A DNA stretch of 37,162 nt from a virus. Position 1 is the first letter of the stretch, and each line of letters starts with the position of its first letter. Positions 1 to 37,162 of this stretch are shown here, in pieces. Made by a program: the position numbers and the translations under genes. The notes below the pieces were generated by a model. The model did not search any database. It was given only the letters and a program-made list of their open reading frames with translations, and was not told the origin of the DNA. Location: the IMG/VR virus record IMGVR_UViG_3300031951_000552, positions 1 to 37,162 of that record; one strand, written 5' to 3'.

Positions 1-73
1 GCAGTTGTTTTACAAGGTCATTGCCTGATGAGTCCGTATCGAAGTCATCATCCTCGTAGTCATAGTTGGACAT
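1..73 (-). CDS. Probable scaffolding protein, N-terminal part (cut by window edge)
   Basis: An ATG at 73 opens a frame that runs off the left edge after 24 codons. A good ribosome site (GGAGAAGGA) lies just upstream on the minus strand. The visible residues begin MSNYDYEDDDFDTD and are very acidic, followed by SSGNDLVKQL. An acidic disordered start leading into a helical segment is typical of capsid scaffolding proteins in actinophages, and a scaffold gene is expected after the portal and ejection genes. The family call comes from style and position only, because the coiled-coil body is outside the window. Confidence 0.5.
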   Translation of the reverse strand, partial: MSNYDYEDDDFDTDSSGNDLVKQL

Positions 74-165
74 AGGTCCTTCTCCCATTCTTGTTAGATT
101 GACGCAAGCCTCACATTCACCTTGGGGGAGGTGGTATGGCTCTTGCTACTGGTTTTAATCTCACT

Positions 166-189
166 CTAACGGACCAGTCGTCCCGTTAG
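166..189 (-). other. Intergenic hairpin between the 417-residue gene and the scaffold-like gene
   Basis: CTAACGG (166-172) pairs with CCGTTAG (183-189) across a 10-base loop. It lies just after the stop of the upstream minus-strand gene and about 90 bases before the next start. No T-run follows on the minus strand, so a strong terminator is unlikely. It could be a partial attenuator or an mRNA 3'-end stabiliser that sets the ratio of the gene products on either side. Confidence 0.35.
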
Positions 190-200
190 CAGGCTTTTAT

Positions 201-9521: not shown

Positions 9522-11276
9522 TTATGCTGCCCCGCCAATGGCGGCTAGTAGTTGGCCTATATCTGGACGTTGAGCAGCAGCGGGTGCGCCTCCTGGTTGT
9601 TCTGGAGTTGGCTGCGAGGCAGGGGCAGGGAGTGCTCCCGCTGCTGGAACTTGTGGTGCACCCTGCATTAGTTCTGGTGCTATTGGCATCTCTGGCGCTG
9701 GTTCTGGCGCAAATGCCTTACCAATAATAGTTTCTAACTGAAGACCCTTTTGACGGCCTTGGATAACTTCTGCAATACGAGTAATGATTTGAGATGGATC
9801 TTGACCTTGCGCTGCAAGAGCAGGTATCGCCTGTGCGTACTGAGCAACAGCAACACGCAAAGAGTCGCGCATTTCTTCAATGTCGACACGTTGTTCCTCC
9901 TGGGTAACGTTGAGTTCCATAGGAATCTCACGACGTACATAGTCACGAGAAACTAACTTGTCTGAACGCATCTGTAACAATGCAATGATTGCACGGTTAG
10001 GATCCATACCAGACATAATTCCATAACGAACATCTACACCGTAGTTACCATCGATTTGCTTTGATGGGATGTACTTCATATTAAACGGAGTACCATCATC
10101 TACGCCTCTGATTTCCTTTGGCATATTACCAAAGATCTTCTCATCTACTTCAAAGCAAAGAGAAGCAAGGTCTGTAAACATACGGGCAAATTGTGCTTGT
10201 GCTGACTTGATCTGTGTGTCAAAGCCTGCCTGTAGTGCTTGTACACCACGGCCTGTAACGATAGATGCATCGATGTTACCTGAGCGAACCTCTGGGTAAC
10301 GAGAACCTAGGCGTAGTTCACGCTCTAGTACACCTGACTCTGTAAAGACTCCAGGTGGTAGTTCTAGTGGAACACGTCGAATACCCTGTGGGTTTGCAGA
10401 ACGCATAATTGCATCTGGTCCCAGTGCCAACTCTTGCACATCCTGTGGGATAGCAATAGGTGCTTGGATAGATTTCTCTGCTGCTTGGATCTGCAATACT
10501 GCAAAGCGAGCACGAGCAAGTTGAACTGACAGAACATCATCAAACTGTCCACGTGCTTCACCGTCAATAGATGAGCGCATAGCAACGTATGCCATACACT
10601 TTCCAATAGGGTTTGGAACATTTGAGAGTACTAGGTTCTTACGCTCTGGGATAAAGATTAAGTCTTGGTCTTTGTCGTGGTAACGAACTAGTGACACATA
10701 AGGTGAGCCAGGAGAATAAACATTCTTTGGCATAATCTGGTCATAGAACTCTGGGTACTGCATCGCTAACGTTTCAGCATCAGATGCCATAACTTGTGTA
10801 AGCGAAACTGTGCGACCGAATCTATCAATTTCAGGATAAGTACCAAAAGGATTAAGCAGACGTATTCTCGGATTATTGGTTTCATAGTCCATCTCCACCA
10901 TACCTGGCAACATACCGTAGGTATTAAACCAGTCAGCACCTGTGTACATTTGAATTTGTAGTTCAGATGCACTGATGTAATGGTTAACAATACGAGTACG
11001 AGTATCTGCAGCCTTGCGTGCTGAGTCTGAAACCATATTGGTTGCAGCGCAGTTAAATGATGGTAGCGGTGCCATTGCTTCTGCAAGGTCACGTGCTGCT
11101 ACGTCAATGAAGTTAGCAACTAGAGGCTTTGGGTACTCCTCTGAAAACATTGCAGGGTAAACCTTGCTAATGTCTCCCTGACGTACAGAGAGCACATCAC
11201 GCATTCTCTGGTCACGTGCGGAGTAGCGCGTCTGTAGGCGATTAACCTTGGCTACTACCTCTTTAGTTGATAACAA
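9522..11276 (-). CDS. Portal protein
   Basis: A 584-residue protein two genes downstream of the terminase, of normal portal length. The portal forms the dodecameric ring through which DNA enters and leaves the head. Typical features are an N-terminal helical arm, a mixed alpha/beta core with PFGTYPEIDRFGR, a long helical stem region (about 245-370, VLSVQLARARFAVLQIQAAE), and a Pro/Ala-rich disordered tail after 510. The start is TTG at 11276, with AAGGA six bases upstream, ten bases after the previous stop. The family call rests on position, length and overall pattern; portals have no catalytic motif to check. Confidence 0.75.
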   Translation of the reverse strand: MLSTKEVVAKVNRLQTRYSARDQRMRDVLSVRQGDISKVYPAMFSEEYPKPLVANFIDVAARDLAEAMAPLPSFNCAATNMVSDSARKAADTRTRIVNHYISASELQIQMYTGADWFNTYGMLPGMVEMDYETNNPRIRLLNPFGTYPEIDRFGRTVSLTQVMASDAETLAMQYPEFYDQIMPKNVYSPGSPYVSLVRYHDKDQDLIFIPERKNLVLSNVPNPIGKCMAYVAMRSSIDGEARGQFDDVLSVQLARARFAVLQIQAAEKSIQAPIAIPQDVQELALGPDAIMRSANPQGIRRVPLELPPGVFTESGVLERELRLGSRYPEVRSGNIDASIVTGRGVQALQAGFDTQIKSAQAQFARMFTDLASLCFEVDEKIFGNMPKEIRGVDDGTPFNMKYIPSKQIDGNYGVDVRYGIMSGMDPNRAIIALLQMRSDKLVSRDYVRREIPMELNVTQEEQRVDIEEMRDSLRVAVAQYAQAIPALAAQGQDPSQIITRIAEVIQGRQKGLQLETIIGKAFAPEPAPEMPIAPELMQGAPQVPAAGALPAPASQPTPEQPGGAPAAAQRPDIGQLLAAIGGAA

Positions 11277-18605: not shown

Positions 18606-18777
18606 ATTTGTCCGTGGAGTAGAAGCCTTTACCTTTGAAGGTAATAGAAGGAGAATCCCATTTGCGTATCATTGGGATGTGGCACTCAAAACAGGATGGC
18701 TCACGTGGTTGCTCGTGGATACTACGTTCAATAGTTAGTTCGGTATTGCAGTCAGGACAACGATAGTCATACATCAT
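18604..18777 (-). CDS. FmdB-family zinc-ribbon protein (57 aa)
   Basis: The frame from ATG 18777 to TAA 18604 gives 57 residues: MMYDYRCPDC, a second Cys pair CFEC, then IRKWDSPSITFKGKGFYSTD. Cysteines 7, 10, 29 and 32 would bind one zinc. The closing FKGKGFYSTD signature is diagnostic of FmdB-type small zinc ribbons, which are common in actinobacteria and sometimes found in phages as putative transcription regulators. The start overlaps the sigma-factor stop (ATGA), so it is the last gene of the replication and regulation operon. The stop falls inside the terminator stem. Confidence 0.8.
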   Translation of the reverse strand: MMYDYRCPDCNTELTIERSIHEQPREPSCFECHIPMIRKWDSPSITFKGKGFYSTDK

Positions 18778-19406
18778 TGGTAAGGCGACTCTCCTCCCAT
18801 AAAGTTAAGTAGTTTACGTAGTGCATTGCCACATCTACGATCAGCAGTAGAGATAGCACATTCGATAGTCTCACTCAACTGTTGCAGTGTGTAGTTCTCG
18901 TGATAGCGCAGGCGTAGGATGGTCTTCTCATCTTCATCTAGTAACTCGTATGCCTTCTTGATATCGATGAGTGTGGCTAATAGGTTGCCACCTTCTGCTG
19001 GTGCTGCAGGCTTACGTGGTGTGCCATCATTGACAAGGTTCTGTGCCTGTTCAATAGCAGTCTCATTGACCACGCTTGCAATTACATACGGCAAGAGTTG
19101 TGCGATAGTGATGACATCATAAAAGGTTTCATCATTGGGTTGGTAGCCTGACTTAGCAGCCTTCTCCTTGCGGGCATAGCGTTCGATAGCACGCTTCATC
19201 TGCCAACCGATACGCCTTTGGTTAGCCAGACGTACAGCCTCGTTATCTTCTGTTAGTAAAGCATTAAAGTATGAGATGCGTGTCATTACCCAAGCGTATG
19301 CCTCTTGCGTCAGGTCAACACGATCTACATACTTACGATAGCGACGATGAACTAAGGTCACCACGCTGGGTACGATGTCATTGATTGCTGGGTGTGGCTC
19401 AGTCAC
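18774..19406 (-). CDS. Sigma-70-family-like transcription factor (210 aa)
   Basis: The N-terminal part has a region-2-like stretch (VDLTQEAYAWVMTRISYFNA, about 29-48). The C-terminal part has a clear region-4 helix-turn-helix: LDEDEKTILRLRYHENYTLQ then LSETIECAISTADRRCGNAL, about 155-200. Between them is a loose, Pro-rich linker. A sigma factor brings RNA polymerase to particular promoters. A phage-coded one probably serves middle or late leftward promoters such as the CTCYAGTAT motif, but that link is inference. The stop overlaps the FmdB ATG. A non-sigma DNA-binding regulator is the alternative. Confidence 0.7.
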   Translation of the reverse strand: MTEPHPAINDIVPSVVTLVHRRYRKYVDRVDLTQEAYAWVMTRISYFNALLTEDNEAVRLANQRRIGWQMKRAIERYARKEKAAKSGYQPNDETFYDVITIAQLLPYVIASVVNETAIEQAQNLVNDGTPRKPAAPAEGGNLLATLIDIKKAYELLDEDEKTILRLRYHENYTLQQLSETIECAISTADRRCGNALRKLLNFMGGESPYQ

Positions 19407-19815
19407 AGTCAGGTAGCACCAAATCTATAGTGTGTTGGATGTTAAGTAGTTTGATAGCAAGGAAGTCAATGTAATTACTGGCATCTGCTAACTCTTCGAT
19501 CAGTTCTCTGATGGTATCTGAGGTAGTAAAGGACTCAAACTTCTGACCCTTAGCGTGTGAGTATTGGTCGTGACCCACACCTTTGACTCGCATAGCACGA
19601 AGAGATGCAAAGGATTCGATGAAGGATGTTAAGTCCTCAGTTGATACACCCATCGCACGATACCCAGTAACAGCAGCGTGATCTACTAACGGGTTGGCTG
19701 TGGGCGTATCAGTATTGTCTGGCTCATCCTGTCCTGGTGCAAGATGTGAAAGCCCATATGCTGCAAAGTCTGTAACATTATGACCCACTCGTTCTCGGTC
19801 ATCGTCATACATCAC
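19399..19815 (-). CDS. Possible MazG-like nucleotide pyrophosphohydrolase (138 aa)
   Basis: The first 50 residues are acidic and probably flexible. The C-terminal half has the run QKFESFTTSDTIRELIEEL followed by ADASNYIDFLAIKL, resembling the E-x-x-E...D-x-x-N metal-binding helices of the all-alpha NTP pyrophosphohydrolase (MazG-like) group. Only part of the full motif set is visible, so the enzyme call is tentative. Such enzymes trim nucleotide pools or act on ppGpp. It overlaps the Toprim gene by 4 bases and the sigma gene by 8. Confidence 0.4.
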   Translation of the reverse strand: MMYDDDRERVGHNVTDFAAYGLSHLAPGQDEPDNTDTPTANPLVDHAAVTGYRAMGVSTEDLTSFIESFASLRAMRVKGVGHDQYSHAKGQKFESFTTSDTIRELIEELADASNYIDFLAIKLLNIQHTIDLVLPDCD

Positions 19816-20453
19816 ACACCTCCAAATAATTTCAACGATTCTTCTTTACCGTACGCAAGGTAGTAATCATTGATGTCCATTGATGCGGGCAATGATACTA
19901 TGCGTGAGTTCATTACCTCTTGTGACACACGGCGGGAGAACTCAGCACCTGGGTTAGTACCGTCCTCTTTGATGTCGTTGTCACCGACTATGTACACGAT
20001 GTCATAGCCTGTAAATAACTTAGTAAAGTGTGGCTTCCAAGCCTGCACTCCTGGTACTCCTACTGCTGGCAGGTTCAAGATACCTGATACAACTACTGCA
20101 TCTAACTCACCTTCACACACCACGATACTAGATGAATCAATGGTGACATCAGCCACGTTATAGAGGTGACCCTTCTGTCCTGTCGGTGCACCATACTTAG
20201 GCTTGCCATCATCTAGCCTGCGAAACTTAACGCCCACACACATACCAAGTGCGGTCAGATAGGGCACAGAAAGCCAGCCCGCGTGGGTTTCGTGACCATT
20301 GATTGGGTCTGTTACTACACCCAACGAAAACTGTTGGGCAACATCTTCAGAGATCCCACGTCCTTCGAGATACTCTAGCGCCCTTGTGTCCAGGTTTTTG
20401 CTGTAATGATTGACCGCTTCCAGCAACGATCTCGATTGCTCGTGCGAGTGCAT
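19812..20453 (-). CDS. DNA primase, Toprim catalytic part (213 aa)
   Basis: This is the catalytic half of a DnaG/T7-gp4-type primase that makes RNA primers at the fork. Residues 24-48 (RALEYLEGRGISEDVAQQFS) match the N-terminal subdomain of the catalytic core. Toprim motifs are VVCEGELDAV (catalytic Glu114), YIVGDND (Asp158/Asp160) and a later DIND. The zinc domain lies in a separate, overlapping frame just upstream. ATG 20453 has GGAG seven bases upstream, so it can be started on its own. The helicase is a third gene (21764-22588). Confidence 0.8.
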   Translation of the reverse strand: MHSHEQSRSLLEAVNHYSKNLDTRALEYLEGRGISEDVAQQFSLGVVTDPINGHETHAGWLSVPYLTALGMCVGVKFRRLDDGKPKYGAPTGQKGHLYNVADVTIDSSSIVVCEGELDAVVVSGILNLPAVGVPGVQAWKPHFTKLFTGYDIVYIVGDNDIKEDGTNPGAEFSRRVSQEVMNSRIVSLPASMDINDYYLAYGKEESLKLFGGV

Positions 20454-20724
20454 CCTTAAACTCCAAGTTCTCTATGATACCTACGACATTGACTGCATTA
20501 CCACCCTTCCCGCAGGTGTGGCAGAAGAACAAGTTGTCATAGGTATTGATGACAGCGCTTCTTCTTTTATCAGGATGGATGCAGCACCTTACAGATGCAG
20601 ACCTACCCTCTCGTACTTCCCCTCCGTAGTGCAGAACTATTGCTCCTATGGGGATTGTGTTTGCATCAACGGCACCTTTGAACCGTCCCGCTTTACGTAC
20701 CCTGGACCAGTCTTGTGCTGGCAT
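20347..20724 (-). CDS. DNA primase, zinc-binding part (125 aa)
   Basis: This is the template-recognising zinc domain of a DnaG-type primase. ATG 20724 (MPAQDWSRVRKAGRF) has AAGGGG six bases upstream and is preferred over TTG at 20757. After VLHYGGEVREG come the metal ligands: CCIHPD (Cys47/48, His50) and FFCHTCGKGG (Cys68, Cys71). The domain ends near 95, and the rest is a short tail out of frame with the Toprim gene, which it overlaps by 107 bases. It also overlaps the preceding zinc-finger gene by 79 bases. Confidence 0.75.
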   Translation of the reverse strand: MPAQDWSRVRKAGRFKGAVDANTIPIGAIVLHYGGEVREGRSASVRCCIHPDKRRSAVINTYDNLFFCHTCGKGGNAVNVVGIIENLEFKDALARAIEIVAGSGQSLQQKPGHKGARVSRRTWDL

Positions 20725-20825
20725 ACACACCCCTTGTCGTCGCACTTCTCGTGCCAATTAGAAGCACGTTTGTAATGGGTTAGAGTGTTCTCTTCCCCTG
20801 CCTTGTGACAGTTCTGACAAATCAT
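20646..20825 (-). CDS. Small zinc-finger-like protein (59 aa)
   Basis: ATG 20825 (MICQNCHKAGEENTLTHYKR) is preceded by AAAGGAG and overlaps the upstream TAA. Cys pairs CQNC near the start and KCDDKGCVC later, with WHEKC, suggest a metal-binding fold. Similar tiny C-x-x-C ... C-x-C-x-H proteins occur beside replication genes in actinophages. The last third overlaps the primase zinc-domain frame. The function is unknown. Confidence 0.6.
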   Translation of the reverse strand: MICQNCHKAGEENTLTHYKRASNWHEKCDDKGCVCQHKTGPGYVKRDGSKVPLMQTQSP

Positions 20826-21763: not shown

Positions 21764-22588
21764 TCAAACACGTAAGTAGGCCCTACCTTGTGCATCTTGA
21801 TCTCCTATCTGGCACGCTGCAAAGTTAACAAATAGTGTAGCCCATTTAGAGGCATCTGCTGTGTGTGGACCAAAGCGATTCTTCACCGCAGCCACACGCA
21901 ACATCCCTTGACCTGGGTCATAACCCAATGTGAGTATCAGCGCAGGTAACTGGCTGACCTTACCGTGAATAGCACGACGCGGTGGTGGCATACTCGGTGA
22001 TCCATACTCACTCTGCTCGCTGACGTGATGGAGTACTAAGACGCAAGCCTGAGTCTTGCGTGCCATATCGTGCAACTCCATCATAATTGCACGTAGCCCT
22101 GCCCATTCATTGTCTGTTTCGGCAGCAACATTCATTAAGTTATCAATGATAATTAACTCAGGTGCTATTCCATACAGTTCAACGTAGGCTTTAATCTCCA
22201 ATTCAATGTCATCTAATGATGGACTTGAATCGAATACCCATTGTATGTGTGACATCTTTGATAGGTGTTCACCGTAGAAGTCTTCCTTGTATTCCATATT
22301 GGACTCAACGGTTAACTGCGTGTGCCCTGAGATCTGCGCTGCAGACCGCATCAACACTGTTGCAGTATCAGTATCGGCTGAAAAGAAAAGAGTTGGTACC
22401 TTAGCCCTGATTGCATAGACAAGAGCAAACATACTCTTACCAGCATTAGGTGCAGCGGCGACCATACATACTTGCCCACGTCTAAACTTAATGGACTCAC
22501 CAGCAAGGCCAGTCCATACATCAGGCAACGGTATAGCCTTGGTGTGGCTACCGCCCATCGCCCGCTTTAGATTAAGCAACTTCCCCAT
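21764..22588 (-). CDS. RecA-fold replicative helicase / DnaB-like ATPase (274 aa)
   Basis: It has only the RecA-like ATPase core: Walker A AAPNAGKS (45-52), Walker B ELIIIDN (144-150), and VLVLHHVSE near 183, equivalent to motif H3 of DnaB/RadA enzymes. A DnaB N-terminal domain is missing, so the length fits phage hexameric helicases that work with a separate primase. It should unwind the fork with the split primase encoded downstream. I used ATG 22588, though TTG 22597 and ATG 22558 are possible because no ribosome site is ideal. The start overlaps the end of WhiB. Confidence 0.75.
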   Translation of the reverse strand: MGKLLNLKRAMGGSHTKAIPLPDVWTGLAGESIKFRRGQVCMVAAAPNAGKSMFALVYAIRAKVPTLFFSADTDTATVLMRSAAQISGHTQLTVESNMEYKEDFYGEHLSKMSHIQWVFDSSPSLDDIELEIKAYVELYGIAPELIIIDNLMNVAAETDNEWAGLRAIMMELHDMARKTQACVLVLHHVSEQSEYGSPSMPPPRRAIHGKVSQLPALILTLGYDPGQGMLRVAAVKNRFGPHTADASKWATLFVNFAACQIGDQDAQGRAYLRV

Positions 22589-22841
22589 CCCCTCCAAGAT
22601 TTATTCTGCGTTGTCTCCTTACTGCAAGACGTTCACGTGGTGCAAGCCCACCCCATATACCGAACTGTTCCTTATGGATTCCCCACTCAGCGCATTCGGT
22701 TCTATGAGTACAACGTTTACAGATTGACTTTGCATACTGACTTTCAATGTAACTTACTGATTCCTTATCTTTATCAGGAAACCAGAAGTCACCACCTATC
22801 TCTGCACATAGCGGGTTCTCGTACTCACGAGGCTCCCGCAT
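22572..22841 (-). CDS. whiB: WhiB-family Fe-S transcription regulator
   Basis: This is an 89-residue protein with the complete WhiB signature: Cys12, Cys41-x2-Cys44-x5-Cys50 for a [4Fe-4S] cluster, the turn FGIWGG (60-65) and a basic tail (RLAVRRQRR) for DNA contact. WhiB proteins are found only in actinobacteria and their phages and bind the primary sigma factor. Phage copies can redirect host transcription or block superinfection. It is preceded by the zinc-ribbon gene (4-base gap) and overlaps the helicase gene. It is the best evidence for an actinobacterial host. Confidence 0.92.
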   Translation of the reverse strand: MREPREYENPLCAEIGGDFWFPDKDKESVSYIESQYAKSICKRCTHRTECAEWGIHKEQFGIWGGLAPRERLAVRRQRRINLGGDGEVA

Positions 22842-22845
22842 CGTA

Positions 22846-23229
22846 TTATCTTAAGAAGATAGCGTCGCACTTATCTGCTGCACCCTTTGGTGCAGAACAC
22901 ATCCACGCTTTCCAAGGTCCACGTGCAGATGTACCAGTACGGTAAGTCATATTGCCGTGCTTACAGGTGGGTGCCTGTCCTTCTACCACCTGTGGTTGTG
23001 CAGGTGCAGATGTTACTGGTGTACCACCAAATGATTCAGCAACTGATGCAACTGTTGGTGCTGGTGCTCCACCGTGTAAGTCATTACTAGTTGACTTGAT
23101 AAGTGTTGCAACCATACCTAGATCTGCAAGACCTGTCTCTAAATCCTTGACATCTTTTGCATAGAGATTGATTAGCGTTCCATCATTTAACTTGTAATTG
23201 ATTTGATACTTTGTGCCTTCTGTTGCCAT
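22846..23229 (-). CDS. Zinc-ribbon protein of actinophage replication modules (127 aa)
   Basis: Residues 1-50 form a small beta/alpha domain (YQINYKLNDGTLINLYAKDV). Residues 51-85 are a Pro/Ala linker. The C-terminus is a zinc ribbon: CKHGNMTYRTG ... WMCSAPKGAADKC. Proteins with this layout sit beside Cas4-like nucleases in many actinophages. Their role is unknown; single-strand DNA binding has been suggested from context and would fit. It is directly between the nuclease and WhiB genes. Confidence 0.65.
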   Translation of the reverse strand: MATEGTKYQINYKLNDGTLINLYAKDVKDLETGLADLGMVATLIKSTSNDLHGGAPAPTVASVAESFGGTPVTSAPAQPQVVEGQAPTCKHGNMTYRTGTSARGPWKAWMCSAPKGAADKCDAIFLR

Positions 23230-24171
23230 TTACTTTCCTCCAGTTTGTCTGATTGATAACCTTTGTGATTCATTACCAAACTTCTTAGGCACATACCCAA
23301 TAAGTTTTTCTACTTCCTCACTGTCAATACTTTCACGTCCCTTGACAGTTGTCCAACTGACTTCTATTCCACTAGGCGTTACTCCTAGCAGTCCTTCAAA
23401 AGAAGTCTTCAGTGAATCTTGTTCCTTCTCTAGTACCTTGATCTGTGCTGCTAACTGTAAGTACAGCAGTGCATTCTTGTCAATATCAGCATCATCAATT
23501 ACTAGGTCAGTTGCTGGTGTAAGTTCTTTTTTTATACCAACGCATCCCATCTCACCTGATGCGTCATAGAACTTGCAATAGTGTTTGCAATAAGAAGCAT
23601 CACGTTCTGGATCTGGTGCAGTATCTGCCACCTTGATAGCCTCCAACCAGTTCAATGCCTGTAGTGCAATGGTTTCATCGTAAGGTTCTGTGTGTACTTT
23701 GACATCTCGCTCATCACCATCACGTGCAATAGCAACCAGTGATACGCGCTTTACATCGTAGCCATTCTTTGCTAGTAGGTAACCGTATGTCTGTACCTGC
23801 CAGCGTTGCTGTGTCGATGGGAAGTAACTAAGATTCTTCACCTTGCTTGTCTTCCAGTCAATAACATCACCAGTACCTGGTACATAGCAGTCAATGTGTG
23901 CCTTCATACCGTTGTACTCAACCGATGTTTCAATCATTACATCTGGGTTATCTGCTAGTGCTCTTTCAATTTCTGCGTGGATAGCAGTACCCATAATCGC
24001 AGCAAGTTTCATCTCGTTCTCGTTAGTCTCTGGCTGATCGTTTAATCTATACCAGACCTTACGACGGCAACCACCTAACTCTGATGGTCCTATCTGTACC
24101 TGTGTAGAACGTGAACGCTTTGCATCACCTGCTTTAAGTGCAGTTAATAATAGTTCCTTTGGGTCTGTCAT
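23230..24171 (-). CDS. Cas4/RecB-like PD-(D/E)XK exonuclease with Fe-S cysteines (313 aa)
   Basis: The RecB nuclease motifs are in order: GTAIHAEIE (His65), AHIDCYV (Asp94), GDVIDWKTSK (Asp105, Lys107) and QVQTYGYLL (Gln126, Tyr129). Four cysteines, one at 35 and three at 195, 199 and 210, are placed as in Cas4 and AddB, so an iron-sulphur cluster is likely. The C-terminal 85 residues are a helical extension. It would act in recombination or processing of replicating DNA ends. There is no CRISPR array or Cas1 here. It starts one base after the Ntn-hydrolase stop. Confidence 0.85.
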   Translation of the reverse strand: MTDPKELLLTALKAGDAKRSRSTQVQIGPSELGGCRRKVWYRLNDQPETNENEMKLAAIMGTAIHAEIERALADNPDVMIETSVEYNGMKAHIDCYVPGTGDVIDWKTSKVKNLSYFPSTQQRWQVQTYGYLLAKNGYDVKRVSLVAIARDGDERDVKVHTEPYDETIALQALNWLEAIKVADTAPDPERDASYCKHYCKFYDASGEMGCVGIKKELTPATDLVIDDADIDKNALLYLQLAAQIKVLEKEQDSLKTSFEGLLGVTPSGIEVSWTTVKGRESIDSEEVEKLIGYVPKKFGNESQRLSIRQTGGK

Positions 24172-24729
24172 TTACATCCTTTCCTGGACCACTAACTGTA
24201 TGGGCTTACCAGTGTTCGCGTCAAGTACTGATGCAATCTCTACTGCCTTTCGTGCGTGTCGCTTGGCGTAGGCTAACTCCATATCAGGTTTGACAATTGA
24301 ATACAGGTAGCCAAGAGCAAGTTGACCCCCACTACCAATGCCATACGCTCCGTGATTTGCTTGGAAAAAAGAGAGATCACAAGCAATACGAAAGATATTG
24401 CCGTTAAAAGCAATGAGATAATCGAAACCACCATCTTTGTCCGCCTTGTTGTAGTCGTAGTTGTTGTCTGCAAATGCTTGGTTAATACTGGGAATGATCT
24501 TGCGTCCCATAAACTGTGCTGGATCTTCGCCACGATACAACGGTGGCTTCCAGTTATAGGCAAGGATATCTCCTGGCCTTGTGTCCCCTGAGATACCTAT
24601 CAGGTACTTACCTACCTCAACGATCTTGGGTGTACTAGTTGCAAGTGTCACGAGATTATCTTCTGTGATCTGTGAGTCTGCTACTAGTACAGCGTAATCG
24701 ATTCCCTCAAGCGCTGCGATTGTTGTCAT
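24172..24729 (-). CDS. Proteasome/HslV-like Ntn-hydrolase peptidase
   Basis: This is a single-domain threonine protease of the proteasome beta/HslV superfamily. I chose ATG 24729 because removal of its Met exposes TTIAALEGIDYAVLVADSQI, giving Thr1 and Asp17 in the standard places, with Lys34 (TPKIVEV) one residue off the standard Lys33. Motif GIGSGGQLALG (129-139, Ser132) and Asp169 complete the expected set. The earlier ATG at 24741 would block the N-terminal Thr and overlaps the -10. HslV-type enzymes form rings and need an unfoldase; none is seen here, so a host ATPase would be required. It is the first gene of the leftward replication operon and appears leaderless. Confidence 0.82.
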   Translation of the reverse strand: MTTIAALEGIDYAVLVADSQITEDNLVTLATSTPKIVEVGKYLIGISGDTRPGDILAYNWKPPLYRGEDPAQFMGRKIIPSINQAFADNNYDYNKADKDGGFDYLIAFNGNIFRIACDLSFFQANHGAYGIGSGGQLALGYLYSIVKPDMELAYAKRHARKAVEIASVLDANTGKPIQLVVQERM

Positions 24730-24736
24730 AGGTAGA

Positions 24737-24791
24737 ATCATACTAGAGATCGGCGTGTCGTCGCGTTAGCGACACTACTAGTTACTACAAT
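24737..24791. promoter_or_regulatory. Divergent promoter pair with central inverted repeat
   Basis: Leftward: TATGAT at 24737-24742 (minus strand) lies 7 bases before ATG 24729, in the context CTCTAGTATGAT. Rightward: TACAAT at 24786-24791 lies 7 bases before GTG 24799. At those distances transcription would begin at or next to each start codon. Neither has a TTGACA-like -35. Between them GTGTCG (24755-24760) and CGACAC (24770-24775) form an inverted repeat that could be a shared operator. Confidence 0.55.
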
Positions 24792-24798
24792 ATGAGCC

Positions 24799-25095
24799 GT
24801 GAGGCGAATAAAACAGGGTGCCCTAGAAGGGCACGATGGTGCAGTACTGACTGTGCGGTTCCGTCTACCAAGGCTGCCGAAATTTAGGCACAAACTACCA
24901 GATAAATTTGGTTCTGATCTACGAGGTCTAGGTCCAGTACACGTCTGTCCCTGCGGCTCACAAGTCTTTAATGTTATGTGTTCCTTTGAAGATTACGAAC
25001 TGGTCTGGTACTTCTTAGATGCAACCTGTGTCAACTGTGGGAATCTAGTAGTTGTTCCCTGTCCAGTAGATAAAGATGAAGCACAAACTCTCTGA
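24799..25095 (+). CDS. Zinc-ribbon protein (98 aa), unknown function
   Basis: The core FRHKLPDKFGSDLRGLGPVH with two Cys pairs (CPCG at 50-53 and CVNCGN at 77-82) is a zinc ribbon of a type I know from phage hypothetical proteins. GTG 24799 has no ribosome site but a -10 seven bases upstream, so a leaderless message is likely. A later GTG near 24854 is also possible. It overlaps the HNH gene by 20 bases, so they form a two-gene operon. Confidence 0.6.
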   Translation: MRRIKQGALEGHDGAVLTVRFRLPRLPKFRHKLPDKFGSDLRGLGPVHVCPCGSQVFNVMCSFEDYELVWYFLDATCVNCGNLVVVPCPVDKDEAQTL

Positions 25096-25426
25096 GATTA
25101 ACGAAGAAGAACGCACAGGATTGTGCTCAGTTTGTGGCCCCACAAGAATAAAGATACGAGATAAGTCTAAGCCAGTATCAGGTAGGTACCGTTGTAATAC
25201 TATCTACAAGATCAATCAGATGAAGGCACGTTCTCCTTACCACGCTCACCGTAAAGATTACTGCGAGCACTGTGACTTCAAGCCAGTACATATCAGCCAG
25301 TTGGATGTAGACCACATAGACGGTGACCGCTTTAACAATGATCCAGCCAACCTCCAAACCCTCTGTGCTAACTGCCACAGGCTTAAAACGCACCTCTCAG
25401 GGGATAGCAACTCAGGCATTAATTAG
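25076..25426 (+). CDS. HNH endonuclease (116 aa)
   Basis: A small metal-dependent nuclease. The HNH motif is complete: DVDHIDGDRFNNDPANLQTL then CANCHRLKTH, with His80, Asn91 and His101 as the likely catalytic and metal residues and CEHC/CANC pairs holding a structural zinc. An additional N-terminal Cys set (CSVC, YRC) suggests a second zinc finger. It could be a homing endonuclease or a general phage nuclease; lying alone in a plus-strand pair between minus-strand operons is typical of mobile HNH genes. No intron or intein is visible nearby. Confidence 0.8.
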   Translation: MKHKLSEINEEERTGLCSVCGPTRIKIRDKSKPVSGRYRCNTIYKINQMKARSPYHAHRKDYCEHCDFKPVHISQLDVDHIDGDRFNNDPANLQTLCANCHRLKTHLSGDSNSGIN

Positions 25427-25432
25427 TTTTGT

Positions 25433-25479
25433 GGCACAAAAAAAGAAGCCCACCCCTTTCGGGGTGAGCCTCTTGTGCC
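25433..25479 (-). terminator. Intrinsic terminator of the tail/lysis operon
   Basis: On the minus strand the perfect hairpin CACCCC-GAAA-GGGGTG (25451-25466) is followed by GGCTTC and seven Ts (complement of the A-run 25438-25444). An outer pairing GGCACAA (25433-25439) / TTGTGCC (25473-25479) extends it. It lies just after the holin gene (stop 25497), so it ends leftward late transcription. On the plus strand no T-run follows, so it stops HNH transcripts less well. Confidence 0.85.
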
Positions 25480-33523: not shown

Positions 33524-34033
33524 CTATGATTTCGATATGCCGTAAAGCGTTGCTGTTGAGTATTGAGCAAAGGTGCTACCTGTAAAAGTTAAAGAAGTAA
33601 TTGCTGCGGTTTGTGACCAAAGGCCAGCAGACATTCCTTGATAAATAGTACTTGTGTTATTTTCATTTGCACCGTCTGCACTTACTGATTTGAAATTTGC
33701 TGATGTATAATTTGGAATATAAACTTCACCATTGCCAAATGTGTTTGCGGTTGCAGTTGATGCTGGAATATAAAACAAATGATTTGAACCAAAGGCGGCT
33801 TGTGTATAACTCACGACAGAACCCCCAGCATCACCTAGCCATCTTAAAGTATAATCAGCACTTGACCCATTAAAAGCAATAAGTAAATTAGTAAAAGCAC
33901 CGCCAGTTGTACTTCTGGCACTAATCTTAATTACTAAATCTGTATAAATTGCTGGGATAGAAGTAAAAGCCATACTTGCAGCACCACCTGCACCGACTGT
34001 AACAGATGCAATCTTTTTGAATGTATCTGCCAT
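33524..34033 (-). CDS. Fibre module, paralogue C (169 aa)
   Basis: The N-terminus FKKIASVTVGAGGAASMAFT is clearly related to the next two genes upstream (V-G-A-G-G-A-A-x-x-x-F-T/S-S-I-P-x-x-Y-T). The rest is beta-rich with an N-N-T-S-T-Y-like loop, and it ends in FAQYSTATLYGISKS, again shared. It reads as one compact beta domain, probably a fibre tip or receptor-binding unit. Confidence 0.65.
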   Translation of the reverse strand: MADTFKKIASVTVGAGGAASMAFTSIPAIYTDLVIKISARSTTGGAFTNLLIAFNGSSADYTLRWLGDAGGSVVSYTQAAFGSNHLFYIPASTATANTFGNGEVYIPNYTSANFKSVSADGANENNTSTIYQGMSAGLWSQTAAITSLTFTGSTFAQYSTATLYGISKS

Positions 34034-34036
34034 AGT

Positions 34037-34546
34037 CTAAGCCGCCTTTATTCCATAGAGAGTGAAGGTAGATCCAGTAGCAAGATTTGCAGATGCCGCA
34101 TAGACCTTAATAGTAGTTATTGCCGAGGTACTTCGCCATAAACCAACAACTGCGGTAACTTCAGCAGCAGCCATATTATTACGAGATAATGCTGTTTTGT
34201 ATGTAGTTGTATTTGAATAATTGTTAATTGAAATAATAACTGGCGTAAAAGTTCCTGCTGGTTGAGATGCTGCATCTATATTGGCTGCTGGTCTTAAAAA
34301 AGTTTGACTTGATGCACGAGCCGAGGAAGCAGTACTTCCATTTCCCTTTAATTCAGTATAAGAATAGTTGCTTGCCGTATCTGAATTAAATTGAATATAA
34401 AGTGAATCATCGGTTGCTGCTCTTGCAGAACGACCACTTACTATTAAAACCAAATCGGTATAAGCCCCTGAGATGCTAGAAAAGGTAACATCTGCAGCAG
34501 CACTACCTAAAGTAGTAGTTGCAATCGGTTCGTATGTTGTTGGCAT
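34037..34546 (-). CDS. Fibre module, paralogue B (169 aa)
   Basis: It begins YEPIATTTLGSAAADVTFSS and ends GSTFTLYGIKAA, sharing start and end blocks with its neighbours while the middle differs (SDTASNYSYTELKGNGSTAS). Same beta-rich single-domain build, no Cys. The middle, variable part is where receptor specificity would be expected. Confidence 0.65.
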   Translation of the reverse strand: MPTTYEPIATTTLGSAAADVTFSSISGAYTDLVLIVSGRSARAATDDSLYIQFNSDTASNYSYTELKGNGSTASSARASSQTFLRPAANIDAASQPAGTFTPVIISINNYSNTTTYKTALSRNNMAAAEVTAVVGLWRSTSAITTIKVYAASANLATGSTFTLYGIKAA

Positions 34547-34548
34547 TG

Positions 34549-35145
34549 TTACCCCTTAATTCCATATAGGGCGAATGATGAGTATTGAACAAAGTTAGAA
34601 GCGTTGCCATTTGTTAAAGTTATTGTTGAAATTGCGGTGGTTGATTGCCAAAGACTAGAAGCAAACGAAATACCATAACCGCTACCATTGGCATCTACGC
34701 CGCCAAGTGTTCTAACGGTTTTATATTTATTCGTATTGGCGTAGTCTAAAATATCCACAATAACTGCGTTGAAAATACTGCCAGATGTTCCTGTTGTGTT
34801 GTCATTTAATAGAGCATCTGAACGAGTTGTGAACGCTGATGAACTAGCGGCTGAACCACTACCTCGCAAAATGTGTGCTGCGTAGTTATTGCCACTATCG
34901 CTATTAAAGCGCATACCAGTATAGTCAGTTGATGCTGGTTGTAGAATTGCTCTAATTTGCAAATGCGTATAGGTACTAGGAATGCTACTAAATGTAACAG
35001 TTGCTGCACCACCTGCTCCTACTGTAGTGGTAGCAATAGATTCAAAAGCAGGATCTACAAAGGCAGTATTGCCAGCCAACATATCTGTATAACGTGTGAC
35101 GGTGGACATTCCACCTGCGTTACTCATCTTATAGATATATGGCAT
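34549..35145 (-). CDS. Fibre module, paralogue A (198 aa)
   Basis: This is the longest of the three paralogues, with 30 extra N-terminal residues (MPYIYKMSNAGGMSTVTRYT). From about 34 it has FESIATTTVGAGGAATVTFS and at the end YSSFALYGIKG, as in B and C. The ATG overlaps the stop of the 101-residue gene (ATTAGG context). The extra N-terminus may be the anchor to the tail. Confidence 0.65.
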   Translation of the reverse strand: MPYIYKMSNAGGMSTVTRYTDMLAGNTAFVDPAFESIATTTVGAGGAATVTFSSIPSTYTHLQIRAILQPASTDYTGMRFNSDSGNNYAAHILRGSGSAASSSAFTTRSDALLNDNTTGTSGSIFNAVIVDILDYANTNKYKTVRTLGGVDANGSGYGISFASSLWQSTTAISTITLTNGNASNFVQYSSFALYGIKG

Positions 35146-35470: not shown

Positions 35471-36514
35471 TTAGTATTGATCCATTATGTCAGCGATTGT
35501 AGAACTTTGAAGAAGTGCATCTGTCTGTGCAATTGTGTAAGTGTTGGCAGTAAGGAAAGTTCCATAAGCAACCACAACCAGTGTGTCATTTAATGTTGCT
35601 GCCAATGCCAACACAACTGATGTTCCGTTGGTAGCGGTGTAATCGGTAGTGCGTACAAGAAGCACACCGTTAAGATAAACCTGCTCTGCTCCAACTGTGT
35701 ATGAAAGAGTCAGTGAGTTGAGATCGGTACCGCTAAATGTTGTTTGTCCTGCGGTGGCACTGTATGAATATGAGATTGCAGCGGCGGAACCAGCAGCACC
35801 TGTTGGGCCAGTTGCTCCTGTTGCACCTGCGGTACCTGAAGGACCTGTTGGTCCTGTAGGACCAGTAACCCCATCTATTCCAGAAGGGCCAGTGGCTCCA
35901 GTTGCTCCAACAGGACCAGTTGCACCAGCGGGGCCAGTTGCACCAGCAGGTCCTGTAGGACCAATATCTCCTGTAACACCTTGTGGACCTGTCGCTCCAG
36001 TGGCTCCTATAGGCCCTGTAGGGCCTGTTAGACCTTGTATACCAGTAGGTCCGATGTCTCCAGTTACACCTTGTGGGCCTGTGGCCCCTTGTGGGCCAGT
36101 CGCTCCCGCAGGTCCTGTCGCACCTGTGTCTCCTGTTGCTCCAGTTGCGCCAACTGGTCCCGTAGGTCCAGTAACTCCCGTGACTCCTGTAGCGCCAACA
36201 GGTCCTGTCGCACCTGTTGCTCCCGTATCGCCCGTTGCTCCTGCAGGGCCTGTGGCTCCTGTAATTCCAGTAGCACCCGTGGCACCCGTCGCGCCAGTCG
36301 GTCCAGTACTTCCTGTAACACCTGTTGCTCCTGTTACTCCAGTGGCTCCAGTGACACCAGTTGCCCCTGTAGAACCAGTTGGTCCTGTTGCTCCCGCAGG
36401 ACCAGTGGGTCCTGTAGGTCCAGTGACACCTTGACCACCTTGTGGTCCTTGGTCTTGCGAAAATTCTACTGCTACTTGTGGCGTAATGTTCTCAATAACA
36501 ATTATTGTTGTCAT
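35471..36514 (-). CDS. Collagen-like fibre protein (347 aa)
   Basis: Residues 1-22 form a short beta N-terminus ([19 protein letters not shown]). About 23-243 is an unbroken run of Gly-X-Y triplets, mainly GATGPTG and GATGVTG types, expected to form a trimeric collagen triple helix. Residues 245-347 form a beta-rich head with [20 protein letters not shown] and [15 protein letters not shown], a recognised fibre-tip domain. The trimer would be a thin flexible tail fibre. The ATG overlaps the upstream gene's stop by 4 bases. Confidence 0.85.
35783..36445 (-). repeat. Gly-X-Y triplet repeat tract of the collagen-like gene
   Basis: About 220 codons of short tandem units, most 9 or 18 bases, encode Gly-X-Y with Thr, Pro, Ala and Val at X and Y. 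Codons vary (GGA, GGT, GGC, GGG), so the DNA repeat is degenerate although the protein repeat is regular. Such tracts can change length by slippage or recombination and easily mislead assembly. Confidence 0.8.
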
Positions 36515-37133: not shown

Positions 37134-37142
37134 CTATCTACC

Positions 37143-37162
37143 TCACTTCTTCTTTTTACGAG
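37143..37162 (-). CDS. C-terminal end of a gene cut by the window edge
   Basis: The minus strand from 37160 reads CGT AAA AAG AAG AAG TGA, giving a product that ends RKKKK with its stop at 37143-37145, just upstream of the GTG at 37133. It must be the last few codons of the next structural gene in the operon. Basic tails of this kind occur on head and tail proteins; nothing more can be said. Confidence 0.4.

Follow-up and report, generated by a model that had tools for sequence, protein, structure and literature searches.

What would a proteasome-like peptidase do for a phage, and would it need an unfoldase to do it? The question is raised by a gene in a virus record that is 37,162 bases long, incomplete, and called the window below. 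On balance, we favour an accessory peptidase, probably ring-forming, that works inside the host during infection with no unfoldase of the phage's own. The evidence comes from the start and active site of the protein, its predicted fold, the phages that carry it, the two genomic positions in which it is found and the search for an ATPase partner.

The peptidase gene is on the minus strand (Table 1), for which the preliminary description had given no strand, and Pfam, PHROG_1040 and dN/dS values agree that the reading frame is real. The protein (185 aa) begins MTTIAALEGIDYAVLVADSQIT. An ATG 12 nt upstream, which would give MILP-MTT, was rejected as the start: it is unconserved, and in-frame stops are found there in many relatives. 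Many relatives have such stops only a few codons before ATG-ACA-ACA, and a Met/Val/Leu-Thr-Thr N-terminus is found in 163/163 relatives from the first three protein-seeded scans and in 80/80 from the next scan. The upstream stops and this shared start indicate that the nascent protein is Met-Thr-Thr. Methionine aminopeptidase normally takes Met off ahead of Thr, so that a propeptide would be unnecessary and exposure of Thr1 would require Met removal alone. The sequence comparison thus agrees with the earlier proposal that Thr1 becomes N-terminal in this way.

Table 1. Positions of the peptidase gene and of neighbouring genes and elements in the window.
Feature	Position	Strand	Remarks
Group-I proteasome-like (HslV/BPH-type) threonine peptidase gene	24729..24172	minus	185 aa, MTTIAAL..., Thr1/Asp17/Lys34/Gly47 intact
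Upstream in-frame ATG extension (MILP)	24730..24741	minus	judged from upstream sequence of relatives
Inverted repeat GTGTCGC-TAAC-GCGACGACAC	24755..24775	minus	leader between divergent genes, 26 nt upstream of peptidase ATG
Strong intrinsic-terminator-like hairpin	25443..25474	minus	14 bp stem, U run; consensus scan only; parts late genes from peptidase operon
PD-(D/E)XK (Cas4/RecE-like) exonuclease	23230..24171	minus	next in operon, begins at peptidase stop
Mycobacteriophage L5 gp49-like protein	22846..23229	minus	profile matches
WhiB-like transcription factor	22572..22841	minus	WhiB motif in 76/80 related loci
DnaB-like helicase	21764..22597	minus	not an unfoldase
Primase, two overlapping ORFs (20347-20757, zinc-binding part; 19812-20453, Toprim part; perhaps a split gene or a programmed frameshift)	19812..20757	minus	
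Sigma-70-like factor	18774..19406	minus	end of module
Divergent pair: 98-aa zinc-finger-like protein (24799-25095), HNH endonuclease (25076-25426)	24799..25426	plus	
Portal gene	9522..11276	minus	in the E7 clade the peptidase gene directly follows the homologue; here it does not

With Met removed, Thr1, Asp17, Lys34, the G-I-G-S132-G-G block and Asp169 are at the positions originally reported. In an alignment of 243 sequences, T1, D17, K34 and the oxyanion-hole residue Gly47 are unvaried (243/243), and position 132 is either Ser or Thr. A search among the relatives for loss of Thr1, Asp17 or the Lys thus found none. Asp169, which in proteasomes belongs to the extended catalytic network, is kept in 194/243 and replaced by Asn or Ser in the others, which belong to some of the clades. 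As family constants, then, the first three residues of the original list hold but Asp169 does not. Over 80 close relatives the median dN/dS is about 0.055, indicating strong purifying selection; within the window clade, dS relative to the window copy has a median of about 0.65. An intact N-terminal-threonine active site is well supported by these alignments.

The fold assignment is consistent between methods. The protein matches Pfam PF00227 (Proteasome) with 43.7 bits (E=3e-11; curated cut-off 22.4) and PHROG_1040, 'peptidase HslV family', with E=5.5e-28. An AlphaFold2 model, made with 61 natural sequences as input, has a pLDDT of 90.8 and a pTM of 0.86, with predicted helices at 50-58, 70-88, 135-145 and 152-169 and a strand at the C-terminus, that is, two helix pairs and no C-terminal H5. 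Together with the absence of a propeptide, this is the arrangement seen in group I apart from most HslV. In a Foldseek comparison, the beta-proteobacteria proteasome homologue BPH came first (5ovs, E 6e-12, TM 0.77), followed by 20S beta and HslV; the top viral structure models were unnamed or 'HslV' phage proteins. Against the PDB, a profile of the 61 phage relatives found HslV (3e-11) and BPH (1e-10), the latter covering the full profile. The proteasome-beta/HslV fold claimed in the preliminary description is thus borne out by comparison of the model with solved folds of the Ntn-hydrolase type, and the predicted fold can be regarded as well supported. Assignment to a particular equivalog was rejected for HslV (NF003964, TIGR03692; 18-20 bits against cut-offs of 137-158) and for the archaeal 20S beta subunit (TIGR03634; 30 bits against 224). 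No 20S alpha subunit partner was found, the peptidase being the sole PF00227 gene of the window.

Group I of the proteasome-like family comprises HslV, BPH, AAH, PPH and CPH (Fuchs, Alva and Lupas, 2021; PMC8665760), and as judged from its sequence and predicted structure the phage peptidase belongs to this group. AAH, PPH and CPH are likewise group-I homologues carried by phages, with no known function or AAA+ partner, although no AAH-encoding actinobacteria-specific phage was found in that survey (PMC8665760). PPH has about 140 aa and misses helix H2 (PMC8665760); identity with PPH was rejected, given the 185 aa and the predicted helices 50-58 and 70-88 of the phage protein. The best fold match, BPH (PDB 5ovs/5ovt/5ovu), is 22-23% identical, bacterial rather than viral, and has a long acidic pore loop where the phage protein has one of about 14 residues. 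BPH forms a heptameric double ring and is sensitive to epoxomicin. It has no known unfoldase and no propeptide (PMC8665760). HslV (ClpQ) shares the group-I fold and compact subunit with the phage protein, but it has HslU as a partner, which the phage lacks and actinobacteria almost lack. Annotated phage genes of PHROG_1040, namely those of Actinomycetia phage DSL-LC01, Microbacterium phage Pumpernickel (gp135) and Moorella phage MTATph1, belong to the same family, with the N-terminal Thr and the core residues; identity to them is only 23-34%, and in the window clade both the place in the operon and the leader are distinct. Sequences of HslV-like phage proteins have been reported before (PHROG_1040; Fuchs et al., 2021, PMC8665760). 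In the papers searched, no functional characterisation of PHROG_1040-type or other proteasome-like phage proteins was found, in agreement with the earlier remark that no phage enzyme of this kind has been characterised. What is new, as read from the sequences, is a very large branch of group-I homologues in lake actinophages, whichever the subgroup, that includes the first cultured 'Ca. Nanopelagicales' phages.

At least 590 relatives were found in viral contigs with the window protein as query and at least 541 with an actinophage alignment, the two sets overlapping partly; they occur on phage contigs of up to 202 kb. The window phage is taken to be an actinophage from its WhiB gene, a marker of actinobacterial hosts, and from the nearest named records of its portal and TerL. 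These are OX376640 and OX376641 (portal 52-54%, TerL 46%), followed by Streptomyces Beephvirinae (43-44%). The two records (L084 and L085) correspond to Planktophila phages LanE43AprE7 and LanE43AprF5 but bear the label 'Caudovirales sp. ct2KA10', a naming artefact that obscures the host. With these two, phages of 'Ca. Nanopelagicales' were isolated for the first time, on cultures of 'Ca. Planktophila' (PMC10202952). They are genome-wide relatives of the window phage, with a sister peptidase gene that is 32% identical. Of the two places proposed for a homologue search, actinophages gave many. On the host side, a search of genome contigs with the window protein found no relative, and at 1e-6 the phage profile matched 0/396 actinobacterial genomes in a run without a positive control, but with a profile that detects the gene in phage records. 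On these grounds a recent origin from a host gene was rejected. Broad PHROG matches do occur in actinobacterial genomes: five that were inspected comprised one genuine HslV beside HslU, one PPH-like protein, one broken PPH-like stretch and two other proteasome-like proteins, and the remainder are open frames sized like 20S subunits.

The gene heads a replication operon, as first described. The hairpin at 25474-25443 on the minus strand divides it from the late genes, and downstream of it come the genes for the exonuclease, the WhiB protein, the DnaB-like helicase, the primase and the sigma factor. An inverted repeat is found at the leader position in 76/80 relatives, and in variants such as GTTGC...GCAAC and GTGTCGC-CTAGTA-GCGACAC the arms stay complementary. 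The leader repeat is not a terminator, since it has no U run; it may serve as an operator or form a hairpin in the leader RNA.

The location just described holds throughout the window clade, where the peptidase gene is found between the divergent zinc-finger-like/HNH pair and the exonuclease gene at all loci showing the neighbours. In the E7 clade the gene instead starts 13-18 nt after the portal gene, at 78/80 loci; of the two exceptions, L126 ends before the portal would appear, and at L160 the neighbour is a replication gene. In the tree the two clades are joined (support 94/93), with long branches. A portal-seeded search, which is independent of peptidase presence, found a single peptidase copy in 8/8 freshwater records with a match (27 to 50 kb), with E7-type copies after the portal and window-type copies before the exonuclease. 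The gene was present in 0/5 Streptomyces-type genomes (42-47 kb) and in none of three shorter freshwater portal records (23-27 kb), which are fragments. In the window clade, the region after the portal gene shows no peptidase remnant. The two addresses, together with the absence from the Streptomyces-type genomes, suggest that the gene has survived a change of place, or else was lost and acquired again, and that it is no constant component of head building in the lineage. This bears on the possibility that the enzyme is a head or virion maturation protease, cutting scaffold, capsid or internal virion proteins. The site directly behind the portal gene, as in the E7 clade, is the usual address of prohead proteases. 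We nevertheless regard such a role as distinctly unlikely, because the peptidase is missing from Streptomyces Beephvirinae, whose TerL and portal are homologous (43-44%) and whose genes are in the same order, and because the window clade has the gene in its replication operon. Moreover, the major head protein gene is preceded by a separate scaffold-like gene and is about 9.5 kb away from the peptidase gene, and in other phages the peptidase gene is found amid nucleotide-metabolism or WhiB genes. The expectation that the protein is made early fares unevenly in the same comparison: the position in the window's replication operon agrees with it, whereas the sister clade's copy sits in the structural operon, after the portal, which means that the function may not always call for early timing.

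The enzyme might also be the peptidase component of a two-part machine in which a host ATPase (Mpa/ARC, ClpC/ClpX) supplies chosen host proteins, and the closeness by profile to HslV, whose partner is HslU, is consistent with this. However, HslU is found in only 1/198 actinobacterial genomes, counted without regard to order, making it an unlikely feeder, contrary to what was suggested at the outset. Mpa/ARC, the other ATPase suggested, occurs in 91/198 of the same genomes, but it is known to dock on an alpha ring, for which the phage has no gene. Nor is an ATPase co-inherited in the lineage of about 40 kb: no ClpX/HslU-type AAA+ gene was found in the window, in nine window-clade records or in about 15 E7-clade records, and no AAA_2 protein, the sign of a co-encoded HslU, in the window or its relatives of about 40 kb. 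AAA-type matches in the E7 clade were rejected as an ATPase partner, being the DnaB-like helicase, a P-loop protein. AAA+ proteins do occur in a small number of very large phages that have a related peptidase gene. In three contigs of more than 150 kb, from large freshwater phages, a 533-aa AAA+ protein, which we take to be Ycf46-like, is encoded about 9 kb from the peptidase gene, and two of the three also encode a ClpC-D2-like AAA+ protein; in those phages an AAA+ partner for the peptidase is possible. No AAA+ partner was found to co-occur with such homologues by Fuchs et al. (2021; PMC8665760) either. On the whole, we consider a machine fed by the host unlikely. A proteasome-like fold alone is no proof of proteolysis, as connectase, which has this fold, acts as a monomeric ligase (PMC8665760). 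Following that precedent, the phage protein could be a site-specific Ntn enzyme, performing limited proteolysis of one target or connectase-like peptide ligation, for example to disarm a host regulator or defence protein. An invariant core triad with a variable Asp169, and a high sequence constraint in the window clade that suggests a fixed partner, would be compatible with this. The predicted model, on the other hand, lacks the helical insertion that connectase has between its early strands, and its compact group-I fold is nearest to the ring peptidases BPH and HslV, which makes a site-specific enzyme rather improbable. A catalytically dead homologue, structural or acting as a decoy, is hardly credible, with Thr1, Asp17, Lys34 and Gly47 retained in 243/243 sequences under strong purifying selection.

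An accessory peptidase without an ATPase of its own is the reading that we favour. In this mechanism, host methionine aminopeptidase would bare Thr1 with no propeptide cleavage, and the subunits would form a BPH-like ring enclosing the active sites. The ring would then cut unfolded, loosely folded or marginally stable host (or phage) proteins independently of ATP, an accessory function that may pay off in freshwater actinobacteria. The location of the gene in an early operon in one clade and behind the portal in its sister suggests that the product probably works through much of the infection and not at one assembly step. A more specific version, which we put forward tentatively as possible rather than probable, is that an unfoldase-free viral proteasome-type ring degrades defined host proteins, either regulators and defence proteins or bulk protein as a source of amino acids. 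If true, a viral proteasome would for the first time have a demonstrated role, here in phages that infect the commonest freshwater actinobacteria, which have streamlined genomes. The size of the branch, the constancy of the active site and the availability of two cultured phages and a cultured host make the role of a viral proteasome, and its need for an unfoldase, testable at the bench.

Several minor observations were made along the way. An E7-type peptidase gene in L150 (1002-1544) is broken after residue 52, by either a frameshift or a sequencing error. In L160 (1064-1606), a homologue of replication gene g170 comes after an E7-type peptidase gene that has no portal gene before it, possibly representing a third address. 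One of the 198 actinobacterial genomes (L278, G155) has a genuine hslV-hslU pair with Mpa/ARC alongside, which is either a rare co-occurrence or a binning error. The large freshwater phages with a peptidase relative and AAA+ genes are L312, L313 and L314 (154-202 kb); L308 and L309 are listed with them. At the ends of the window (1-200 and 37134-37162), about 3 kb are missing relative to phage E7, a stretch that carries the scaffold-like gene and that of the major head protein; the two are otherwise syntenic. Three tandem paralogues of 169-198 aa are found at 33524-35145 on the minus strand, near a collagen-like repeat gene (35471-36514). They are also tripled in phage E7 and are probably host-contact proteins.
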